Shown in pieces: positions 7,059 to 34,096 of a DNA stretch of 37,633 bases. Source of the stretch: Akkermansiaceae bacterium (GTDB taxonomy: Bacteria; Verrucomicrobiota; Verrucomicrobiia; Verrucomicrobiales; Akkermansiaceae); NCBI GenBank assembly GCA_011524615.1, contig WTJZ01000071.1, positions 4,481 through 42,113 on the forward strand, in the 5' to 3' direction. Under the pieces are notes generated by a model. That model searched no databases, was not told where the DNA came from, and saw nothing but the letters and a program-made list of their open reading frames with translations. The first letter of the stretch is position 1, and the number at the start of each line of letters is the position of its first letter. A program made the translations under genes and the position numbers.

Positions 7059-9071
7059 CTATAGACTAGAAGAGACAAAAGAAAAATCACAACCCAGCGC
7101 TTTCAACTCATCCACATACTTTTCTCTTTTTTCTCTGTCGTGTAATATTAAACGACTTAACGAGTCACACGTCTGCGGGTCAGTACAGACGACTCTAGGG
7201 ACTCCGCCTAAATTGAGCTCATCTACCTGAATGCCGCGCAAGTCTGCCAAATCGAATTCTATCGCATGCTCAAACTCCAGGGATAAGGTCTTAAGATTAA
7301 GATAAGATAGTAAAGAACCAGCCTGTATGACGGACGTATGGACGAGCCCCTGTGTACTAGAGAAACTCAAGTCTCCAGAATCTGGTTGATATGAAGCAGA
7401 ATAACTTTCTTCAGGTGAATTAAAGTAATTCAACACCGCGATAATGCATTGGTTTTGCGTAATGCTGTCTGACTCAGATGAGTACAGTTGATAGAAGAGC
7501 ATGGCTTCAATAATCGTCCTATCATCTTTGCTCCATACCTCTTCTAAACGGAGAAATACGCGCTCAAACTGATCTATGCTAGGCCTGTCATCTGCATCAA
7601 ATTGAAACTCAGGGTAGTCCTGCGCTACATGCATGATTCTCTCATACCACGCAGTATCTGTGACCGCCCCTATCTCTAACACCCGCTTGAAGTCCATCTG
7701 AACCGCATTAATCCAGAATAACTCCGCTGCTGCAGCTCGGTTGTCCGGTGCTAGTATCAGGGCCTTTTCGAACAAGAGTTCTGCATCCCCTAAGAGCTTA
7801 ACCATATTTGGCCCGGTAGGGGTACCAGTTCTCCCTAATGCCTCTTGGACCAAATCATGAGCGATACGCACTAATTTAATGGATAAGCTTTGCTGACTAT
7901 CAGCCATCACAGAGGCAAAGACCTCATACTCGTGAGTCACCTCCTCTACCTCATCATTGAGAGTACTCGCCTGTTGCTCCGAGTATGCTCTAATCGCCTG
8001 TACTCGATGCTGTTGTATCCCGATGCCTGCCATCAGTAGAACCAGAAATGTGACAAGAGCAATGACACTACGATGGTGACGCTTGAGAAAAAGGTAGCAG
8101 AACCTCAGGTAGTCTGGTCGTTCCGCTCGTGTCGCATACCCGTCGGAGTATCTCTTCACATCCTGTTTTAACTCTCGCACAGACTGATACCTCTCCTCTG
8201 GGTTAGCGGAGAGCGCCTTAGCACAGATATCAACAAGCCCCTTAGGAATTGACGCAGACAATAACTCTGCTCGAGAGACTCCCTTGAGCGTCATCTCTAA
8301 GCACTCACTCTCCTCTCCTGTGAAAGGGGCTCGACCACAGACAATGGTGTAGAGGATGGCCCCCAGAGAAAAGATGTCTGTACGTTCATCCTTGGGCCTC
8401 TCTGAATGAATTTGCTCTGGAGCCATGTAACCAGGCGTCCCCTGAACGACACCGTACATTGTGAGCATCCCCCCCACCTCTAAGTGTGAGCGCTGGGCAC
8501 TATCATGGTGGTCTAAATCCATATACTTACCTAGCCCCCAATCACACACGAGAACCTCTCCGAATTGATCACACTGGATATTACACGGCTTCAGGTCGAG
8601 GTGAATCACTCCTCGATCATGCGCATATAATACGGCATCACATACAGTCAGGAAGGTAGCTAGGAGATCCTCCTCTGAGGCGCCTTCTCTGATCACCTGC
8701 TCTAACGTGCGATTGGCCTTCAAGTCCATTGTGAAGTATGGACGCCCATGGTCATCCAGTTCGACCTCAAAGACCTTAATAATATTAGGATGACTCAAGG
8801 ACGTCGTCAACCAAGCCTCATAGATGAAAGCCTCATAGAAGTCCTTATCAAGACCTTCCCTCAACTTTGCCAATGCAATATATCGACGAGTCTTCTGGTC
8901 GTAGCACTTATATACCTCCTTCAGCGCGCCCGCCCCCAATAATTCTGGATCCGTATACTTCTCATCAACATTCTGTAACTGTAAGAATGAGGGTGATACG
9001 AGCTCCCAATCCGTCTCTTCCTCTACCGCCTCCTCAAAGAATGAATGTAACTGATCTCCCCACTTATCCAT
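7059..9071 (-). CDS. Transmembrane Ser/Thr protein kinase, copy 1
   Basis: Kinase motifs GAGALKEVY, IALAKL, HLDLKPCNIQ, CDWGLGKY, GTPGYMAPEQ; single TM SVIALVTFLVLLMAGIGI; diverged C-terminal domain. Confidence 0.95.
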   Translation of the reverse strand: MDKWGDQLHSFFEEAVEEETDWELVSPSFLQLQNVDEKYTDPELLGAGALKEVYKCYDQKTRRYIALAKLREGLDKDFYEAFIYEAWLTTSLSHPNIIKVFEVELDDHGRPYFTMDLKANRTLEQVIREGASEEDLLATFLTVCDAVLYAHDRGVIHLDLKPCNIQCDQFGEVLVCDWGLGKYMDLDHHDSAQRSHLEVGGMLTMYGVVQGTPGYMAPEQIHSERPKDERTDIFSLGAILYTIVCGRAPFTGEESECLEMTLKGVSRAELLSASIPKGLVDICAKALSANPEERYQSVRELKQDVKRYSDGYATRAERPDYLRFCYLFLKRHHRSVIALVTFLVLLMAGIGIQQHRVQAIRAYSEQQASTLNDEVEEVTHEYEVFASVMADSQQSLSIKLVRIAHDLVQEALGRTGTPTGPNMVKLLGDAELLFEKALILAPDNRAAAAELFWINAVQMDFKRVLEIGAVTDTAWYERIMHVAQDYPEFQFDADDRPSIDQFERVFLRLEEVWSKDDRTIIEAMLFYQLYSSESDSITQNQCIIAVLNYFNSPEESYSASYQPDSGDLSFSSTQGLVHTSVIQAGSLLSYLNLKTLSLEFEHAIEFDLADLRGIQVDELNLGGVPRVVCTDPQTCDSLSRLILHDREKREKYVDELKALGCDFSFVSSSL

Positions 9072-9082
9072 GGCGCTCCTTA

Positions 9083-9715
9083 CTAATACGATTCCAACTC
9101 GTCTACGAGACTCCTAATCTCGAGCATTAAACTCCTTTGAACCCGTTTCCTAAAGTTATAAACGGAGGATTCCTGGAGCCCTAACTGATCAGCAATCTCC
9201 TTCGCCTTCAACCCTGTTAGAGAAAGCTTAAACACCTCGATCGCACGACCTCTGATCGTCTTCTCAACGCGAGCGAGGGCCTGATCACTAATATAAGCCT
9301 CCCACTGCTTCTCGATGATCTGATCTAGGACCTCATCTTGCTCCTCGAATAAGACCAGATGATCCTTAAAGCGATCGTGCTTCTTCTCGATCGACTGCAT
9401 CTTACGGTAATGCATCTGGAGAGTACTCCTCGTAACCATGGCGAGCCATGACCTAAACCGCCCCTTATTAGAGTCATAATTCTTCAGCTTTTTCATGAGG
9501 GTAATCATCACCTCCTGAACTAGGTCATTCGCATCACTCGGCGAAACCCTCAAGCGTTGTAAAGTGAAATGAATAAAACCAGCATAATGATCATGTAACT
9601 CCTGCCATGCCGTATGATCATCTAGGTTTAAGGCTCGCCCTAGTAGCGAATGCCTCGTCTCTTGTGAATTATTCATATCCATATTTACCGTTTTTGGGCA
9701 GGGGGAATCAATCAT
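9083..9715 (-). CDS. ECF-like sigma-70 family RNA polymerase sigma factor, copy 1
   Basis: Region 2 (ANDLVQEVMITLMKKLKNYDSNKGRFRSWLAMVTRS) and region 4 HTH (LSLTGLKAKEIADQLGLQESSVYNFRKRVQRSL). 11-nt gap to the kinase. Confidence 0.9.
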   Translation of the reverse strand: MIDSPCPKTVNMDMNNSQETRHSLLGRALNLDDHTAWQELHDHYAGFIHFTLQRLRVSPSDANDLVQEVMITLMKKLKNYDSNKGRFRSWLAMVTRSTLQMHYRKMQSIEKKHDRFKDHLVLFEEQDEVLDQIIEKQWEAYISDQALARVEKTIRGRAIEVFKLSLTGLKAKEIADQLGLQESSVYNFRKRVQRSLMLEIRSLVDELESY

Positions 9716-17107: not shown

Positions 17108-19114
17108 CTAGTTGTCTGAACTAGAAAATTCCACTCGGACACCTGCATTCTGTAGCTCTTTTACATAATTGGCATTCCTCTCCCTCTCATGAAGTAAAAT
17201 TTTTCGCAGTCCATTGACTGATAATTCCCCATTTTTATAGAGTCGACAAACTCTCGTACAATCGAGGACTTCCACTCTCATACCATTGAGGTCACATAAA
17301 TTAAGACCGTAATTCTGCCCCGTCCCGACGGATAACTGATCCAACGATAGATACGACAGCAGCCGCTTTTGATTCATCGTCGTGGAGTAAACGAGGCGCC
17401 CATCTGAGTATAATGAAAGCGTATTCTCCGTACTGTTGTAGGATGACTGATAACTAGGTTCTTGATGATTAAAGTAATCGAGCACCGCCTTAACGCTCTC
17501 ATTTCTCGTAGCTGTATGGCTATTAGACACGAGCTCATAGAGAAGCATCGCCTCCACGCTCGCTCGATCTTCTAGTGCCCAATCATCCGCAAGCGCATCG
17601 ATGTAATCGGTAAAGCTTACTTTCGCGCCTAATGCTTTCCGGTCATTTAACCTGTTCGCTACATTATAGAATCGCCTTTCTTTCTCAGACATGGGCTCTT
17701 GCCCTAAGTCTAGTAAGCTGACCATATCCCTCTGGACGATATTGACATGCCGTAAGAGACTGACGGCAGCCCTATTTACCTCATAGACGTCACAGGCCTT
17801 TTCCAGTAATAACTCCGCCTCCCTTAAGAGAATAACCATTTCAGGGCCAATCTCGTCCCCATCCCTCCCCAGTGCATCCTGAATTAAATCATTCGCAGTA
17901 CGGACTAACTTGATAGATAAGCTTTTCTTACTATCTGCCATAGCAGAAGCGAACACCTCATACTCGTAAGTCAACTCGTCTACCTCCTCACTCAGAGTCG
18001 TCACCTGGCGCTCTGATAGCGCTCTGCTCTCCTGTTCTCGTTGTACCCTGCGCTGCTGAATCCCAATTCCAGTCATCAGTAGAATCAGAAAGACACTCCC
18101 CGCGATCACACTTCTGTGATGACGCTTGAGGAAGAGTAGGCAGTACCTGAGGTAATCAGGGCGCTCCGCTCGAGTGACATAGCCCTCTGAATACCTCTGA
18201 ACATCCTGTCTGAGGTCCCTCACAGACTGATACCTCTCCTCTGGCTGCGCCGAGAGTGCTTTGGCACAGATATCGACGATCCCCTTAGGAATAGGTGAGG
18301 CCATCAGGTTCTCTCTAGAGGCCCCCTTGAGTGTACGCTCAAGGCACTCTTCTACCTCTCCCGTAAAGGGAGGTTCTCCACAGACAATAGTATAGAGGAT
18401 CGCCCCTAACGCAAAGACATCCGCACGCTCATCTTTGGGCATCTCAGCATGGATCTGTTCAGGAGCCATATAACCAGGTGTCCCCTTTATATAACCATAC
18501 ATCGTGACCATCCCTCCAGCCTCTAAATGGGAGAGCGGATCTCGTCTCACCTCTTCAGAGTCTAGATATTTCCCTAAGCCCCAATCACACACGAGTACCT
18601 CCCCAAATTGGTCGCATTGGATATTACTCGGTTTCAGGTCGAGATGAATCACCCCTCGATCATGGGCATAGGAGACCGCATCACATACGGTAAGAAAGGT
18701 CTCCAACAACTCCTTCTGTGACACCCCCTCCTCGATCACCTGCTCAAGAGTCTGATTCGCCTTTAAGTCCATGGTGAAATAAGGACGGCTCTCCGTATCT
18801 AATTCTACTTCAAAGACCTTAATAATATTCGGATGACTAAGAGAGGTCGTCAACCACGCCTCATAGATGAAGGCTTCATAGAAGTCCTCATTAAGGTCCT
18901 CTCTCAGCTTGGCTAATGCGATATGTCTACGGGTCTTCCTGTCGTAGCACTTATAGACCTCCTTAAGCGCTCCTGCACCTAACAACTCCTGCTGCGAATA
19001 CTTCTCGTCAACATTCTGTAACTCTACAAAAGAAGGAGAAATGAGGTCCCAGTGAGGCTCCCCATCTGTGGCTAACTCAAAGAATGAGTGCAGCTGATCA
19101 CCCCATCTCTTCAT
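17108..19114 (-). CDS. Transmembrane Ser/Thr protein kinase, copy 2
   Basis: GAGALKEVY, HLDLKPSNIQ, CDWGLGKY, GTPGYMAPEQ; TM VIAGSVFLILLMTGIGI; start overlaps the 3' end of the sigma gene. Confidence 0.95.
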   Translation of the reverse strand: MKRWGDQLHSFFELATDGEPHWDLISPSFVELQNVDEKYSQQELLGAGALKEVYKCYDRKTRRHIALAKLREDLNEDFYEAFIYEAWLTTSLSHPNIIKVFEVELDTESRPYFTMDLKANQTLEQVIEEGVSQKELLETFLTVCDAVSYAHDRGVIHLDLKPSNIQCDQFGEVLVCDWGLGKYLDSEEVRRDPLSHLEAGGMVTMYGYIKGTPGYMAPEQIHAEMPKDERADVFALGAILYTIVCGEPPFTGEVEECLERTLKGASRENLMASPIPKGIVDICAKALSAQPEERYQSVRDLRQDVQRYSEGYVTRAERPDYLRYCLLFLKRHHRSVIAGSVFLILLMTGIGIQQRRVQREQESRALSERQVTTLSEEVDELTYEYEVFASAMADSKKSLSIKLVRTANDLIQDALGRDGDEIGPEMVILLREAELLLEKACDVYEVNRAAVSLLRHVNIVQRDMVSLLDLGQEPMSEKERRFYNVANRLNDRKALGAKVSFTDYIDALADDWALEDRASVEAMLLYELVSNSHTATRNESVKAVLDYFNHQEPSYQSSYNSTENTLSLYSDGRLVYSTTMNQKRLLSYLSLDQLSVGTGQNYGLNLCDLNGMRVEVLDCTRVCRLYKNGELSVNGLRKILLHERERNANYVKELQNAGVRVEFSSSDN

Positions 19115-19733
19115 TTGCGCTCCTTACTGGCACCACCTCAGATTCTAATTCCTCCACAAGACTTCTGATCTCCAACTTTAACTTCCGCTGAACCCTCTGC
19201 CTAAAGTTATAAACAGACGACTCTTGGAGGTCCAGTCTCTCCGCGATTTCCTTCGTTTTCATCCCGGAGAGAGAAAGCCTAAACACCTCAATCGCCCGGC
19301 CTCTAATGGTCTTCTCTACTCGGGCTAACGCTTTCTCACTGATGTACGTCTCCCATTGCTTCTCGATCATCTTATCCAGCACCTCATCCTGCTCTTCGAA
19401 CACCACCATATGGTTCTTATAACGATCATGCTTTTTCTCAACCGACTGAATCTTACGGTAATGAATCTTGAGAGTACTTCTCGTAACAATAGCGAGCCAC
19501 GATCTAAACCGCCCCTTAGCTGAGTCATAATTCTTCAGATTCTTCATGAGCGCGATCATCACCTCTTGGACCAGATCATGAGCGTCACTCGGCGAGACTC
19601 GGGCTCGCTGTAAGATATAATGAATAAAACCAGCATAATGATCATGTAGCTCCTGCCACGCAGTGTGATCATCTAACTGTAAGGCTCGCCCTAATAGCGA
19701 ATGCCTCGTCTCTTGCGAATTATTCATACCCAT
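19098..19733 (-). CDS. ECF-like sigma-70 family sigma factor, copy 2
   Basis: Near-identical organisation to the 9083-9715 product: MNNSQETRHSLLGRALQLDDHTAWQELHDHYAGFIHYILQRARVSPSDAHDLVQEVMIALMKNLKNYDSAKGRFRSWLA. Confidence 0.92.
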   Translation of the reverse strand: MGMNNSQETRHSLLGRALQLDDHTAWQELHDHYAGFIHYILQRARVSPSDAHDLVQEVMIALMKNLKNYDSAKGRFRSWLAIVTRSTLKIHYRKIQSVEKKHDRYKNHMVVFEEQDEVLDKMIEKQWETYISEKALARVEKTIRGRAIEVFRLSLSGMKTKEIAERLDLQESSVYNFRQRVQRKLKLEIRSLVEELESEVVPVRSANEEMG

Positions 19734-27885: not shown

Positions 27886-29907
27886 TTGGCTACTTCATTT
27901 ACATCTCGAACCAAAGGGCAGAACGCGACCAAACTAACTGGCATCAAGGGTGACGAAAAGATCCTGGTGATCGGCAATGGTATGGTCGGATTGCACTTCT
28001 GTAAGTCTCTCATCAAAAGAGGTCTAAATAAGACGCACCGCATTCAAGTCATCGGTGCGGAGAAGGAGCCTGCCTACGACCGCATTCACCTCTCTGAATA
28101 CGTCGAAACCAAGACCGCAGACAACTTAATCTTCCAGCCTAAGCACTGGTACTCCGAGAACCATATAGATCTCACACTAGGTGAAAAGGTGATCAAAGTA
28201 GACTCAGATGATAAGTGTGTCTATACGAATAAGGGTGATCGCCATGAATATGACATCTTAGTTTTCGCCACGGGCTCAAGAGCCTTCGCGCCACCGATCG
28301 ATGGCATCGATAACAGCAAAGTAATTCTCTACAGAACGATCGAAGACGTCCAAAAGATCGTTTCCCTCTCAGAAGGTAAGGAGCACGCCACCATTATTGG
28401 AGGAGGACTCCTCGGTCTAGAGGCCGCACAAGCGGTCCAAAAGCTCCAACTCTCCTCGACCGTCATTCACCTTGGTGGGCACCTCATGCCCGCACAACTC
28501 AACCCCGCAGCGAGTACACGCCTCAAGAATATCGTCGAGTCTCAGGGCATAGAAGTCCTCCTCAAGGGGAACACCACTCAGATCAAAGAGTCTCATGACA
28601 GACTGACCCTCACACTAGATGACGGTCGCACCAAGGAAACAGACCTCGTCATCGTCTCTGCGGGGATCAGACCAAACTCAGAGGTCGCGCAAGAAGCAGG
28701 TATCAAGTGCGGTATCCGCGGAGGAATCGTCGTGGATAACCATATGGCGACCAGTGTCGACGGGATCTTCGCGATCGGAGAGTGCGCGCTCTTCAGAGGA
28801 AACATCTACGGCCTCGCTGCCCCTGGTTACGCGATGGCTGCCCACTTGGTCGCACGCCTAGCAGGTGACAAGATCGCTCCAATGCAGAAGCCAGACCTCT
28901 CGACCAAGTTAAAGATGGTCGGAGTAGACGTCACGACCATTGGTAACGCCCTCAATGATGGAGTACTCATCGAGTATAAGTCGGAGGACACCTACCGCGC
29001 CGTCACCATGACACCAAAGGGTGACCTCGTCGGTGCTCTCGGAGTAGGCGACTGGCCCGAAGCAAACCGAATTCAATCTCTCTACCAAGAAGGCGCCGTC
29101 ATCTCACAGAAGGAGAAAGACCTCTTCATCAAAGAAGGGATCCTCCGTGATGATACCGGTGAGGAGAACTCCGTACAACAATGGCCCGATAATCGCATCC
29201 TATGTAACTGCATGGGTGTGACCAAGGGCGAGATTGTTGACTGCTTCAAGACCTGTGGCGTCGATCCTGACGCGATCGCTAAGAAGACAGGAGCATCTGA
29301 TGTCTGTGGCTCATGTCGCCCACTGCTCGAGGAGCTCTGTAATAAGCCACCTTCTACCCCGACTAAGCCTGTCGCGATCAAGCGCCTTCTTACCCTCTCT
29401 ATCATCGCCTTAGTAGGCATCGCCGCCATCCTCATTCTCCCACCAGCTCCAATCGCTGACTCTGTAGAGTCATGGTACTATAAGATCGATAAGCTCTGGC
29501 GTAGTAACGTGGTCAAGCAAATCACTGGCTATGCCGTCATGCTAGTCTTCCTCCTCGGGCTACTGATCTCACTGCGTAAGAGGTTCAAGTGGTTCCGCTT
29601 CGGACACTTTAACCGTTGGCGTGTATTCCATGCCCTGTTCGGGGTTATTTCCGTGATCACCCTCTTCTTCCACACAGGATTCCACTTCGGGGATAATCTA
29701 AACTACTGGCTGATGCTCTGCTTCGTGCTCATTAATCTCCTTGGAGGAGTCGCGGGCATCGTCTCTGCGATAGAGTCCTCTGGTACGTCAGAGCTCGCTC
29801 TCAAGATGCGTAACTACAGACCGATCCTAGTCTATCTACACATCATCCTCTTCTGGCCTCTCCCTATCCTCTTAGCCTTCCACATCGCAGCAGCTTACCT
29901 GTATTAA
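27886..29907 (+). CDS. NirB-like FAD/NAD(P)-binding oxidoreductase with BFD-type [2Fe-2S] domain and C-terminal cytochrome b-like membrane domain (TTG start)
   Basis: ILVIGNGMVGLHFCKSL and ATIIGGGLLGLEAA dinucleotide-binding motifs; CNCMGVTKGEIVDCFKTCGVDPDAIAKKTGASDVCGSC; C-terminal multi-TM segment with several His; no siroheme nitrite reductase half. Confidence 0.88.
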   Translation: MATSFTSRTKGQNATKLTGIKGDEKILVIGNGMVGLHFCKSLIKRGLNKTHRIQVIGAEKEPAYDRIHLSEYVETKTADNLIFQPKHWYSENHIDLTLGEKVIKVDSDDKCVYTNKGDRHEYDILVFATGSRAFAPPIDGIDNSKVILYRTIEDVQKIVSLSEGKEHATIIGGGLLGLEAAQAVQKLQLSSTVIHLGGHLMPAQLNPAASTRLKNIVESQGIEVLLKGNTTQIKESHDRLTLTLDDGRTKETDLVIVSAGIRPNSEVAQEAGIKCGIRGGIVVDNHMATSVDGIFAIGECALFRGNIYGLAAPGYAMAAHLVARLAGDKIAPMQKPDLSTKLKMVGVDVTTIGNALNDGVLIEYKSEDTYRAVTMTPKGDLVGALGVGDWPEANRIQSLYQEGAVISQKEKDLFIKEGILRDDTGEENSVQQWPDNRILCNCMGVTKGEIVDCFKTCGVDPDAIAKKTGASDVCGSCRPLLEELCNKPPSTPTKPVAIKRLLTLSIIALVGIAAILILPPAPIADSVESWYYKIDKLWRSNVVKQITGYAVMLVFLLGLLISLRKRFKWFRFGHFNRWRVFHALFGVISVITLFFHTGFHFGDNLNYWLMLCFVLINLLGGVAGIVSAIESSGTSELALKMRNYRPILVYLHIILFWPLPILLAFHIAAAYLY

Positions 29908-29911
29908 TCTC

Positions 29912-31351
29912 ATGATCTCTTTCCTTAAATCTTACAAGAACACCCTCATCTGGTTCGTGCTTGCAGGCGTCCTTGGAGGATACTTGAGCTATATCTTCTT
30001 CTACAGTGAGGATAAGACTGCCATCCTACCCGGTACCACCACTAACGGTCACCACCAGATCGAACAACAGTGTGATGTCTGCCATACTAATGAGAAGAAG
30101 AAAAACGTCTTCACCAGCTCTGGAGTACCGAACTCCGCTTGCACCAATTGTCATGGAGAAGACCTTGAGAACTTCAGTGACTCTCACCCGACGCGCAAGT
30201 TCAAGAACCCAGAGAATGCGATCTTCACCCAGCATATCGATGCCCTCAGCTGTGTCGAATGTCACTCCGAGCACAATGCCAAAATTACAGAGAATATGGG
30301 CGTCACCATCCCTGAGGACTTCTGCGCACACTGTCACGAGGTCACGCTGGAAAACCTCGAGTCGCACCAAACCCTCGCCTTCAATACCTGTGACGCTTCA
30401 GGCTGTCACAACTACCATGATAATGTCGCGCTAGCACCAGGCTTCCTCCTCAAGCAATTCAATGTCGCTGACCACAAGGAGGTGAAGATCAGACCTACTG
30501 GCGACTTACTCGACCGTATGGCCGAAGAAGGTATCCGACTCAAAGACCCTCTCACCGCCTCACAAGCAAACGCACCAGCCGATAAACTAGAAGACGGGAC
30601 ACACCTCGATGACTGGGATCACTCTGCACATGCTCGAGCTGGAGTCAACTGCATGGACTGCCACACCGATCGTCGTAATGCTCCTGGAGTAGCATGGATC
30701 GAGAACCCAACACACAAGACCTGTGCCAAGTGTCACGATGTCGAAACTGAGGACTTCTACAAAGGCAAACACGGCATGCGCCTGAAGGAGGACTTAAGCC
30801 CGATGACTCCTGCTATGGCCCGTATCGCCATGCATACAGATGCGGCGCACCAAGAACTCGACTGTAACTCCTGTCACACCTCTCACCGCTACGACCGAGA
30901 GTTCGCCTCCTATCAAGCGTGTATCCAGTGTCATGACGATGAACACACTCAGAACTACGAGAAGTCCAAGCACTTCAAGGCATGGAAGAGTGAGATCAAA
31001 CACGCATCCCCGACCGGCAGCGGAGTCTCCTGCGCTACCTGCCACATGCCGACAGTCGAGCGCGGTGGTAGCCTAGTGGTGAACCATAACCAAAGCGAAA
31101 ACCTTACCCCGAACGAAAAGATGCTGAAGAACACCTGCCTACACTGCCACGGTGCAGAGTTCGCCATGAGTGCGCTCGCAGATGAGAACCTGATACAGAA
31201 GAACTTCTTCGGTGAACCAGAGCGCCGCCATCCAGGTGTCAGTTGGGCCGTAGAGGCGGCTGTCAAGCGAGGGCATGAAGCTGAGGAAGAAATGAAAGCA
31301 TACCTAGAAGCCTTTAAAGACAACGAAGTCATCGAATACAACCAACGATAA
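29912..31351 (+). CDS. Membrane-anchored multiheme cytochrome c (11 predicted heme c sites)
   Basis: 10 CXXCH (CDVCH, CTNCH, CVECH, CAHCH, CMDCH, CAKCH, CNSCH, CIQCH, CATCH, CLHCH) plus one CX4CH (CDASGCH); N-terminal TM anchor. Confidence 0.93.
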   Translation: MISFLKSYKNTLIWFVLAGVLGGYLSYIFFYSEDKTAILPGTTTNGHHQIEQQCDVCHTNEKKKNVFTSSGVPNSACTNCHGEDLENFSDSHPTRKFKNPENAIFTQHIDALSCVECHSEHNAKITENMGVTIPEDFCAHCHEVTLENLESHQTLAFNTCDASGCHNYHDNVALAPGFLLKQFNVADHKEVKIRPTGDLLDRMAEEGIRLKDPLTASQANAPADKLEDGTHLDDWDHSAHARAGVNCMDCHTDRRNAPGVAWIENPTHKTCAKCHDVETEDFYKGKHGMRLKEDLSPMTPAMARIAMHTDAAHQELDCNSCHTSHRYDREFASYQACIQCHDDEHTQNYEKSKHFKAWKSEIKHASPTGSGVSCATCHMPTVERGGSLVVNHNQSENLTPNEKMLKNTCLHCHGAEFAMSALADENLIQKNFFGEPERRHPGVSWAVEAAVKRGHEAEEEMKAYLEAFKDNEVIEYNQR

Positions 31352-31480
31352 CCCCTTTCTCTCCCGCCCTGCGGGAATGAAAAAATCGGAGAATCGGCTC
31401 ACCAGTTTGATTCTCTTTCCACAAACAACCAACCAATAGAGCCGATCTCCAGAGAGGCTACTAACCTAAAAAACAAGACT

Positions 31481-32104
31481 ATGAAACTGAAAAAGCAAAT
31501 CGCTAGCGCACTTATTGCGCTCGGAGCAAGCTCAATGCTTCTCGGACTCTGCTCATGCGGCGGAAGTTCAGAGGCTACAACAGATGCAGATTACTCAGCA
31601 GAGCAGGTCGCAGAAGCACTCTACACCGTACTCTTCGCTGACCGAAAAATGTATGCCTCTAAGATCGTTAACCGTCTCGTAAAAGAAGACAAGGTGATCA
31701 AGGCCCACGAAGAATGGAAAGAAAACAAAGCGCTTCTCCTCCCAGCACAGATGTTCCGTGAAGGAGCAGAAACTGTTGACGGTATGGACAAGCCTTTCGA
31801 GTTCTCTTACTCACTCCAGTCACTCTGGCCTCTCAACATGGAGAATGCTAAGAAGCGTACTCCAGCAGTAATGGAAGGTCTCGCAGCCGTATCAGACGAG
31901 TCATCTGAGTTCTACGGTAAGAAGTGGACCGGTGAAGAAGTCATCGGTGGGCAAAAGTACTTCGTCGGTGTTTACCCAGACCGTGCAGTCGCTCCAGCAT
32001 GTTGGACATGTCACAACAACCACGACAACCGTCAGCCTGACTATCCTGAATTCAAGAAGGGTGATGTTATGGGTGGTATCGTGATCCGTCTACCTAAGAG
32101 CTAA
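31481..32104 (+). CDS. DUF3365/Tll0287-like c-type heme lipoprotein
   Basis: Lipobox LGLCSCGG; single CWTCHNNH; KYFVGVYPDRAVAPACWTCHNNHDNRQPDYPEFKKGDVMGGIVIRLP typical of the family. Confidence 0.8.
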   Translation: MKLKKQIASALIALGASSMLLGLCSCGGSSEATTDADYSAEQVAEALYTVLFADRKMYASKIVNRLVKEDKVIKAHEEWKENKALLLPAQMFREGAETVDGMDKPFEFSYSLQSLWPLNMENAKKRTPAVMEGLAAVSDESSEFYGKKWTGEEVIGGQKYFVGVYPDRAVAPACWTCHNNHDNRQPDYPEFKKGDVMGGIVIRLPKS

Positions 32105-32121
32105 GCCATATTGTTCTCATG

Positions 32122-32151
32122 GAGTAGGGGGATGGTTAGCCCCCCCTACTC
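32122..32151 (+). terminator. Intra-operon terminator after the DUF3365-like gene
   Basis: GAGTAGGGGG-10 nt-CCCCCTACTC (10-bp stem) followed by AATTTTATT. Confidence 0.75.
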
Positions 32152-32172
32152 AATTTTATTCCCACACTCCCT

Positions 32173-32583
32173 ATGAAAAAGTTCGGACACCCAATCTACC
32201 TTCTCAGTGTTGGCCTCACCTTCGCCACCACCACCTTCCTGTCATGCCAGAAGGAAGAAGAAACCGCTCACGCACCCGCTAAGACACATCACCTCGCCGC
32301 AGATTGGGCTCCCTCTGACCCAGAACTCATTCTCGGTAAGAAAATCTATGATGCAGAGTGCGCCCTCTGCCACGACCATGGCGAAGAACAATCTCCCAAG
32401 TTAGGCAAAGAAAAGGAATGGGCCCATCGCAAGACCCAGCCTGTAGACGTCATTATCAAGAAGGCCATCGACGGCTTCCTCGGAGAAGACGGTGAAATGC
32501 CAGCCCGAGGCGGATCAGACTACCTCACTGATGAAGAGGTCGCAGCTGCTGTTAAGTTCATGCTCGCTACCCCCACCCACTAA
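32173..32583 (+). CDS. Small monoheme cytochrome c (class I-like), lipoprotein
   Basis: Lipobox TTFLSCQ; GKKIYDAECALCHDHG; GEMPARGGSDYLTDEEVAAAVKFML. Confidence 0.88.
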   Translation: MKKFGHPIYLLSVGLTFATTTFLSCQKEEETAHAPAKTHHLAADWAPSDPELILGKKIYDAECALCHDHGEEQSPKLGKEKEWAHRKTQPVDVIIKKAIDGFLGEDGEMPARGGSDYLTDEEVAAAVKFMLATPTH

Positions 32584-32630
32584 TCAACTTTCTCTACTCT
32601 TACTCAAGAACCCACAAAACCAAAAACATT

Positions 32631-33104
32631 ATGTCATTATTCAACTTCAAGAAAAAGGAAGCAGAAGCAGCACCAGCACAAGGACCACTTACCGAGGCTC
32701 AAAAAGACCTCGTCCAGTCTAGCTGGGAAAAGGTTGTCCCAATCGCAGATACCGCTGCAGAACTCTTCTACGGTAAGCTCTTCGAACTCGACCCAGCCGT
32801 TAAGCCTCTCTTCGCTAACAGCGATATGTCAGAGCAAGGTAAGAAGCTTATGCAAATGATCACCGTCGCAGTCAAAGGACTCGATAACCTCGGTGAACTC
32901 GTACCAGCAGTACAGAAGCTCGGCGAACGCCACAATGGCTACGGAGTCACAGCAGAGCACTACGATACCGTTGGTGCGGCTCTCCTCGACACCCTCGAAA
33001 AAGGACTCGGTGAGGCCTTCACTCCTGAGACTAAAGAGGCTTGGACGATCACATACACCACTCTCGCTTCTGTCATGAAGGAAGCTCAGTTCGGTAAGGC
33101 ATAA
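32631..33104 (+). CDS. Bacterial single-domain globin
   Basis: LTEAQKDLVQSSWEKVVPIADTAAELFYGKLFELDPAVKPLF, LGERHNGYGVTAEHYDTVGAALLDTLEKGLGEAFTPETKEAWTITY: globin fold with proximal His region. Confidence 0.92.
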   Translation: MSLFNFKKKEAEAAPAQGPLTEAQKDLVQSSWEKVVPIADTAAELFYGKLFELDPAVKPLFANSDMSEQGKKLMQMITVAVKGLDNLGELVPAVQKLGERHNGYGVTAEHYDTVGAALLDTLEKGLGEAFTPETKEAWTITYTTLASVMKEAQFGKA

Positions 33105-33154
33105 GCCCCGAACACCGCATATTCTGACCCACAGTTCAGTCTTGTCAACAAACG

Positions 33155-33191
33155 GTGCTACGTCTGGGTCAGGCGTAGCACTTCTTTTTTT
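33155..33191 (+). terminator. Terminator of the globin gene / redox operon
   Basis: GTGCTACG-11 nt-CGTAGCAC followed by a T-rich run. Confidence 0.85.
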
Positions 33192-33211: not shown

Positions 33212-34096
33212 ATGAACTCCATTCTCACTCTCCTCAGTACTATCACGCTCGGTCTCGCTACCCCGTTGACCACCTTTCTCGATTCCACCCCATCCGCGGG
33301 AGACTCACTGGAGACTCCACTCCTCACCCTCAACTACATTCCTGCGGGACAATTCACCATGGGGAGTCCGGCCTCTGAACAAGGTCGCCGCTCAGATGAG
33401 AATCAAGTCGAGGTTACACTCACCTCACCCTTCCTAATGGCTACCACCGAGGTCTCCCAAGGACTCTGGCTCGCCATCATGGGACAAACTATCGATGAAC
33501 TCATCGCCTCCAAGGCCGACCCTCTCGGACGTGGGGCTAATCTCAAGAACTATCCCTCCGCCACCGGACCAGATCAGCCGATGTGCTTCGTCAGTTACTT
33601 CGATTGCCTAGAGTTCTGCCAAAAGCTCACTGCGCAGTATCAAGCCGATGGCCTCATCCCTGCAGACTATCACTTCACCCTTCCCACAGAAGCTCAATGG
33701 GAATTCGCGGCCCGCGCAGGGACGCAAACCGTCTTTAGCATCGGTAACGTCCTCACAAGTAATGATGCTAACTTCTACGGTAAGATGCCCTACGGTACAG
33801 AGGTGAAGGGCGAATACCGAGAGAAGACCACCCCCATCAAGTCCTTTGCCCCGACCCCATGGGGACTCTATGATATTCACGGCAACGTCTATGAGTGGTG
33901 CCTCGACTGGTATACGGAAGAGCTCACGGGAGGAACGAACCCCGCAGAAATGACCACAGGTGACTCCCGTTGCATCCGTGGAGGGCCATGGAACCGAAAG
34001 GCTACCTCTCTTCGCTCCGCCTACCGCTACAGCTACGACCCGACCCAACGTACCAATAACATCGGGTTCAGAGTGGTCCTACAGAAGCAAGGATAA
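33212..34096 (+). CDS. Secreted SUMF1/FGE-sulfatase-domain family protein
   Basis: IPAGQFTMGSPASEQGRRSDENQVEVTLTSPFLMATTEVSQGLW, LPTEAQWEFAARAG, GLYDIHGNVYEWCLDWY, CIRGGPWNRKATSLRSAYRY, NNIGFRVV. Confidence 0.92.
   Translation: MNSILTLLSTITLGLATPLTTFLDSTPSAGDSLETPLLTLNYIPAGQFTMGSPASEQGRRSDENQVEVTLTSPFLMATTEVSQGLWLAIMGQTIDELIASKADPLGRGANLKNYPSATGPDQPMCFVSYFDCLEFCQKLTAQYQADGLIPADYHFTLPTEAQWEFAARAGTQTVFSIGNVLTSNDANFYGKMPYGTEVKGEYREKTTPIKSFAPTPWGLYDIHGNVYEWCLDWYTEELTGGTNPAEMTTGDSRCIRGGPWNRKATSLRSAYRYSYDPTQRTNNIGFRVVLQKQG

Follow-up and report, generated by a model that had tools for sequence, protein, structure and literature searches.

Related systems and the locus under study

In Bradyrhizobium japonicum, nitrate assimilation is coupled to nitric oxide (NO) detoxification in the narK-bjgb-flp-nasC cluster, which encodes an NAD(P)H flavoprotein as well as a globin (PMC4724949). 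NO can arise from bacterial assimilatory nitrate reductase, and NorW may supply electrons to a single-domain globin (PMC4724949). The nas cluster of R. capsulatus contains nsrR and hcp (PMC1274295). Here, we describe a five-gene redox operon in a 37,633-nt stretch of an Akkermansiaceae bacterium genome (assembly GCA_011524615.1, contig WTJZ01000071.1, positions 4,481 to 42,113; hereafter the window). A scan of GTDB species genomes for its relatives yielded 280 stretches, of which the best 80 are the basis of all counts out of 80 loci; L numbers denote individual loci. In L089, L090 and L005, as in B. japonicum, genes for an NAD(P)H flavoprotein and a single-domain globin stand among nitrate-assimilation genes. 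The B. japonicum system is under NasS-NasT control, and NasT lies beside the module in several of our loci. Unlike the module, that system has no reported membrane heme domain, multiheme cytochrome or heme-Cache protein.

By the tests made, the module is not a member of the NirB, NrfA or DmsE/MtrA types; it would work like an NADH reductase that spans the membrane and is combined with an NO defence built on a globin. We propose, with moderate confidence, that the five genes serve assimilatory nitrate metabolism as an accessory module, in which NADH-driven electron export and a globin would remove NO or related species. The set occurs in about eight phyla, among aerobic and marine bacteria; its cofactor sites are nearly invariant, and no name was found for it. 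Full-text searches found no published description of it; their coverage of subscription papers is incomplete, so this is not proof. If the proposal is true, the textbook account of bacterial nitrate assimilation misses a membrane electron-export branch, and the handling by aerobes of NO from assimilatory nitrate reductase could be studied in cultured bacteria, e.g., Roseibacillus persicicus, Alcanivorax nanhaiticus or Rhodopirellula.

Operon organization and conservation

A preliminary description of this DNA, made from the sequence, had reported five same-strand genes. These were found again as five + strand open reading frames (ORFs), with domains as described.

27886..29907, + strand: FUS, fusion of a NirB-type NAD(P)H/FAD and BFD [2Fe-2S] oxidoreductase with a cytochrome-b-like membrane domain, 673 aa
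29912..31351, + strand: MHC, 11-heme c-type cytochrome with an N-terminal anchor, 479 aa
31481..32104, + strand: TLL, lipoprotein of the Tll0287 type (DUF3365, heme-Cache) with a single CXXCH heme
32173..32583, + strand: CYC, small cytochrome c of class I; lipoprotein-type signal, CXXCH, Met109 invariant
32631..33104, + strand: GLB, cytoplasmic single-domain globin with TyrB10/GlnE7/HisF8
33154..33182, + strand: intrinsic-terminator-like hairpin with a T-run, operon end

The TTG start codon of the FUS ORF is uncertain. The intergenic gaps in the order FUS-MHC-TLL-CYC-GLB are 4, 129, 68 and 47 nt. From these gaps and the terminator-like hairpin at 33154-33182, the five genes were read as one operon. 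An FNR/Dnr-type box was not found upstream of FUS in the window and was found in only 3 of 73 homologous loci; therefore, no general FNR control is claimed.

FUS and MHC were adjacent in all 80 loci, TLL was present in 78 and CYC in 25. A globin was encoded in 60, so that the gene-neighbourhood search suggested in the preliminary description showed a recurring set. TLL and/or the globin preceded FUS in seven loci (L021, L024, L027, L045, L059 and L077, and L016 with the globin alone). The five-gene set is a real unit, not a chance juxtaposition. Its hosts belong to Verrucomicrobiota, Planctomycetota, Lentisphaerota, Pseudomonadota, Nitrospirota, Myxococcota and Binatota, and include a Dadabacteria metagenome-assembled genome (MAG). 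Among near relatives, MHC was rare (4/58 genomes). In the MHC tree, most sequences grouped with others of their phylum, while Verrucomicrobiota appeared at three separate positions; this grouping allows an old spread with a few transfers or losses. No relatives were found in plasmid records or viral contigs.

The 129-nt gap between MHC and TLL (31352-31480) showed strong RNA folding (-35.4 kcal/mol, z -4.5) and is possibly an mRNA processing or expression-tuning element.

Linkage to nitrate-assimilation genes

When the neighbours in the 80 loci were clustered, the most frequent families were a nitrate ABC transporter ATPase, an NrtA/NasS-type binding protein, an Alginate_exp porin and NrtB. 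Response regulators, NsrR/RirA-type Rrf2 proteins, truncated globin, NasT-like ANTAR proteins and NirA were also frequent. Nitrate-assimilation genes (NrtABCD, NasS/T, NirA/B) were found no more than 8 kb away in 24 of the 80 loci, many contigs being short, and these 24 belong to Verrucomicrobiota, Planctomycetota, Lentisphaerota and Pseudomonadota. The binomial probability of this linkage is about 1e-21 at a chance rate of 2% per locus, which is a guess; the excess is large. A separate NirB-like gene was present only in L014, L016, L026 and L080. The ntrB family search gave matches in all controls, and only position and score were used from it.

L089 and L090 (Verrucomicrobiota) carry, on one strand, nrtA, nrtA, nrtB, nrtC/D, porin, FUS, MHC, TLL, GLB, cysJ-like, nirA and dmsBC, with a NasC-type molybdopterin enzyme beyond dmsBC, 6-8 kb from MHC. 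The Roseibacillus loci (L005, L091) carry nrtA-type, SUMF1, nrtB, FUS, MHC, TLL, CYC, GLB, nrtC/D, nirA, flavodoxin-like, dmsBC and reductase genes. In the genome of the window, contig C273 carries nrtB-C-D, and contig C212 carries nirA, dmsBC and an enzyme of the nitrate-reductase type; the module is on a separate contig, and linkage is not shown there. The preliminary description missed the nitrate-assimilation link because these genes sit on other contigs of the assembly.

Co-occurrence was examined in a phylum sample of 241 genomes. MHC was present in 6 and nitrate reductase in 31, and all six MHC genomes were among those 31 (hypergeometric 3e-6 by genome and 0.006 by genus, with only 3 genera). 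At E<=1e-60, nitrate reductase was counted in 45 of 50 genomes, a number that likely includes formate dehydrogenase or NapA relatives; we therefore relied on the stricter 241-genome survey and the linkage. An Rrf2 gene directly flanked the module in 6 loci, and NsrR was the best model in five of the six.

An Alginate_exp-type outer-membrane porin lay near the module in about 15 of the 80 loci (e.g., L015:4663-5925, L037:4649-5926 and L089:9066-10442) and is possibly a nitrate/nitrite porin. On C212 of the window's genome (L088:2577-6989), the NasC-type reductase stands beside a fused DmsB-DmsC-like protein and NirA, which suggests a quinol-linked, membrane-attached assimilatory nitrate reductase. 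The NrtB permeases of C273 (L087:2128-3756) and of L005:4056-5747 have a long charged insertion ahead of the transport domain.

FUS as a NirB-like input module on a membrane domain

The fusion protein is divided into three parts.

27958..29091, + strand: FAD/NAD(P)H domain (Pyr_redox_2 and Rubredoxin_C) by domain match, with Foldseek matches to NADH:ferredoxin reductases
29197..29337, + strand: BFD-like [2Fe-2S] domain (Fer2_BFD), with Cys440/442/474/477 invariant in a 47-row alignment
29374..29901, + strand: membrane domain of five helices, His pairs 582/596 and 652/666, from the alignment and predicted helices; putatively bis-heme b

The input half matched NirB (TIGR02374) at 412 bits over residues 26-486, below the family cut-off of 578, and the NADH:flavorubredoxin reductase NorW at 163 bits. 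The NirB match stops at residue 486, and a siroheme (NIR_SIR) catalytic domain was not found in FUS. FUS is therefore NirB-like at its front end: it shares with the N-terminal half of NirB the FAD/NAD(P)H, Rubredoxin_C and BFD [2Fe-2S] input module, but where NirB continues with the siroheme catalytic half, FUS has a membrane domain with four His as a conduit.

Membrane helices were predicted at residues 497-517, 541-563, 575-597, 605-631 and 636-672 (AlphaFold2, mean pLDDT 90). In the 47-row alignment, His582, His596 and His652 were invariant, and His666 was conserved at more than 90% (99% in a larger set). The members of each pair are 14 residues apart, on helices 575-597 and 636-672, as would be expected of two b hemes stacked across the membrane. 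This spacing on two helices is shared with NADPH oxidase (NOX), ferric reductase and cytochrome b. Unlike NADPH oxidase and ferric reductase, FUS has an input domain of the Pyr_redox type, not of the ferredoxin-NADP reductase type, and a dedicated multiheme cytochrome as acceptor. The family search gave only weak DUF4405 and Ni_hydr_CYTB matches for the membrane domain and did not place it in Pfam Ferric_reduct. In a fold search with whole FUS, the FAD domain alone matched, with no independent match for the membrane-domain fold.

Two Polyangium loci (L049:4179-7985 and L067:4140-7982) encode a fusion ORF of roughly double length (1268 aa), in which these NADH/FAD and [2Fe-2S] domains extend over residues 27-533.

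MHC and the question of nitrogen-oxide reduction

MHC has a single N-terminal helix (residues 2-31) and eleven heme motifs, ten CXXCH and one CX4CH, a count that is kept in 78 of 81 homologues.

30050..30367, + strand: N-terminal tetraheme domain (Cytochrom_c3_2-like), hemes 1-4
30389..30409, + strand: heme 5, unusual CX4CH, its spacing kept in 81/81 homologues
30629..31150, + strand: C-terminal six-heme part, distantly NrfA/ONR/HAO-like

Hemes 1-4 resemble a flavocytochrome c3/STC-type tetraheme domain (Cytochrom_c3_2 match). Hemes 6-11 resemble modules of NrfA, octaheme nitrite reductase (ONR) and hydroxylamine oxidoreductase (HAO) by profile, and weakly by fold. In addition to the His of the 11 heme motifs, a further 11 His are near-invariant (47, 92, 121, 152, 169, 240, 287, 325, 345, 354 and 392), judged by conservation to be enough for bis-His ligation of all 11 hemes. 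Compared to the DmsE/MtrA-type decaheme model, MHC scored 48.5 bits, far below the cut-off of 192.

The main rival to an NO-removing accessory module is that MHC itself is a periplasmic reductase of nitrite, NO or hydroxylamine, fed with NADH via FUS. By profile, the C-terminal half of MHC matched NrfA and octaheme nitrite reductase (E ~5e-11); by fold, it matched the hydroxylamine oxidoreductase of Brocadia fulgida (E 7e-4, prob 1.00, TM 0.3). In one alignment, heme 9 fell on the catalytic CXXCK heme of ONR/NrfA. The nitrate-assimilation context also counts for it. The likeness to the NrfA/ONR/HAO superfamily lies in these C-terminal heme modules; MHC differs in having eleven hemes and no CXXCK, and the catalytic residues were not found in the alignments made. 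No CXXCK catalytic heme was present among 81 MHC homologues, and the proximal Lys of NrfA is His in MHC. The MHC position aligned with the distal catalytic His of NrfA was Gly in 85% of the sequences, and neither a matching Tyr nor a CHVEYY-like Tyr motif was seen, the alignment being a distant one. The conserved His permit all-bis-His ligation, the module alignments were mutually inconsistent, and the model TM-scores were low. We therefore consider it unlikely that MHC is the reductase. A wider form is also of low probability: a cross-phylum complex of aerobes, hitherto unrecognised, would use NADH via FUS to drive nitrogen-oxide reduction at MHC and so be a partner dedicated to assimilatory nitrate reduction.

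The preliminary description had offered detoxification or reduction of NO, hydroxylamine or nitrite as one possibility. The link to NO and nitrite is favoured by the nitrate-assimilation clusters, the NsrR-like regulators and the NO-dioxygenase-type globin pocket. Reduction by the module is not shown: the NrfA catalytic Lys is replaced, and the conserved His would suffice for all-bis-His hemes.

The globin and the small heme proteins

GLB has no export signal of the lipoprotein type that TLL and CYC carry. Its Tyr47 (B10), Gln69 (E7) and His101 (F8) are conserved at 98-100%, and these residues point to a pocket of the NO-dioxygenase type. The closest PDB match was Hell's Gate globin I of Methylacidiphilum infernorum, with whose Tyr29 and Gln50 Tyr47 and Gln69 align; GLB differs from it in being encoded within a redox operon. 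The same globin was present in 54 of the 80 loci.

Six others (L021, L045, L055, L056, L059 and L063), from Cerasicoccus, Neptuniibacter and an Opitutales MAG, encode a truncated hemoglobin instead. The substitution within the same module points to a required globin function, not to a particular globin.

TLL matched PF11845 at 53 bits (cut-off 24.1), with its CXXCH at C174-H178. It is like the Tll0287/sCache_heme family in its single CXXCH in a Cache-type domain and in being a stand-alone lipoprotein, and differs from Tll0287 in having no axial Cys: in 77 of 77 TLL homologues with CXXCH, the mature domain had no Cys beyond that motif and thus none to act as the axial ligand of the redox-type subgroup. 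According to a 2026 preprint, heme-Cache proteins have NO-sensor properties when fused to signalling domains and redox properties when they stand alone (PMC12889525). CYC, a His/Met cytochrome c, has an invariant Met109, as is usual in high-potential carriers.

Proposed electron flow and remaining alternatives

The route from NAD(P)H through FAD, [2Fe-2S] and membrane hemes to the multiheme cytochrome, already drawn in the preliminary description, agrees with every conserved cofactor site. FUS would take electrons from cytoplasmic NAD(P)H to FAD and [2Fe-2S], and pass them over two membrane b hemes to the periplasmic, membrane-anchored MHC. MHC may then reduce TLL or CYC as periplasmic partners, and the cytoplasmic GLB could draw electrons from FUS. 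The module would most likely remove NO, perhaps also nitrite-derived species, that arise as side products of nitrate assimilation, with GLB acting in the cytoplasm and MHC/TLL outside. NO removal is favoured because NO can be formed by assimilatory nitrate reductase, an enzyme that stands with a globin and a flavoprotein for NO defence in B. japonicum. The gene set, its cofactor sites, topology signals, conservation and nitrate linkage are established, whereas the direction of electron flow, the b hemes, the reduction of GLB by FUS and the final substrate are inferred.

Several observations weigh against this proposal. No nitrate gene was found within 8 kb in 56 of the 80 loci, and no globin in 20, although some of these contigs end early. 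A globin in the cytoplasm leaves the export of electrons unexplained. The module was absent from 25 of the 31 phylum genomes with nitrate reductase, so it is accessory and dispensable for nitrate assimilation. The NasC-type reductase scored below the NasC cut-off, and the formate dehydrogenase alpha model scored slightly higher; its function is therefore assigned from context. The NsrR-like Rrf2 proteins scored below the NCBIfam cut-off in a near tie with RirA. A stand-alone heme-Cache protein of P. putida binds NO weakly (PMC12889525).

Another explanation is that the FAD/[2Fe-2S] part of FUS acts chiefly as electron donor to assimilatory nitrate or nitrite reductase, the cytochromes serving as overflow. 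The NirB-type electron-input domain and the operon position agree with it; Flp was proposed to feed NasC, and B. japonicum flp mutants were without growth on nitrate (PMC4724949). However, in L089, L090 and L091 both enzymes come with electron partners of their own, a flavodoxin or CysJ-like protein for nitrite reductase and DmsBC for nitrate reductase. Because of these partners, it is unlikely that they depend chiefly on the module for electrons. The invariant membrane His and the strict FUS-MHC pairing also point outward, and we judge a cytoplasmic donor role improbable.

A nitrogen-independent use, as a redox-overflow or ferric-reductase/extracellular electron-export device, appears more improbable still. 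It would fit the bis-heme membrane domain, akin to ferric-reductase/NOX logic, the multiheme cytochrome, and the outer-membrane porin noted above. However, no MtrB-like barrel or outer cytochrome was found, the DmsE/MtrA-type score was far too low, the hosts include ordinary aerobes, e.g., Alcanivorax and Rhodopirellula, and the linkage is with nitrate genes. The other idea of the preliminary description, a trans-membrane electron-export system, is not favoured in the form of general export to minerals.

A periplasmic nitrogen-oxide sensor built on TLL, whose heme the electron chain keeps reduced, is the least probable explanation: Tll0287/heme-Cache domains include NO sensors (PMC12889525), and TLL is nearly constant in the loci and has no Cys ligand of redox-type members, but it stands alone without a signalling domain, and no dedicated kinase or chemoreceptor co-occurs.

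Other features of the window

Just 3' of the operon, positions 33212-34096 encode a SUMF1/FGE-sulfatase-domain protein, with homologues upstream of FUS in L005, L008, L009 and L010. NirV, a SUMF1-domain protein, accompanies nirK in denitrifiers. Elsewhere in the window (7059-9715 and 17108-19733), and in L087:5576-8170 and L088:15815-18386, there are repeated pairs of an ECF-type sigma factor and a PknB-like serine/threonine kinase. The kinases have tail domains, and the pairs form a paralogous family within the genome of the window.

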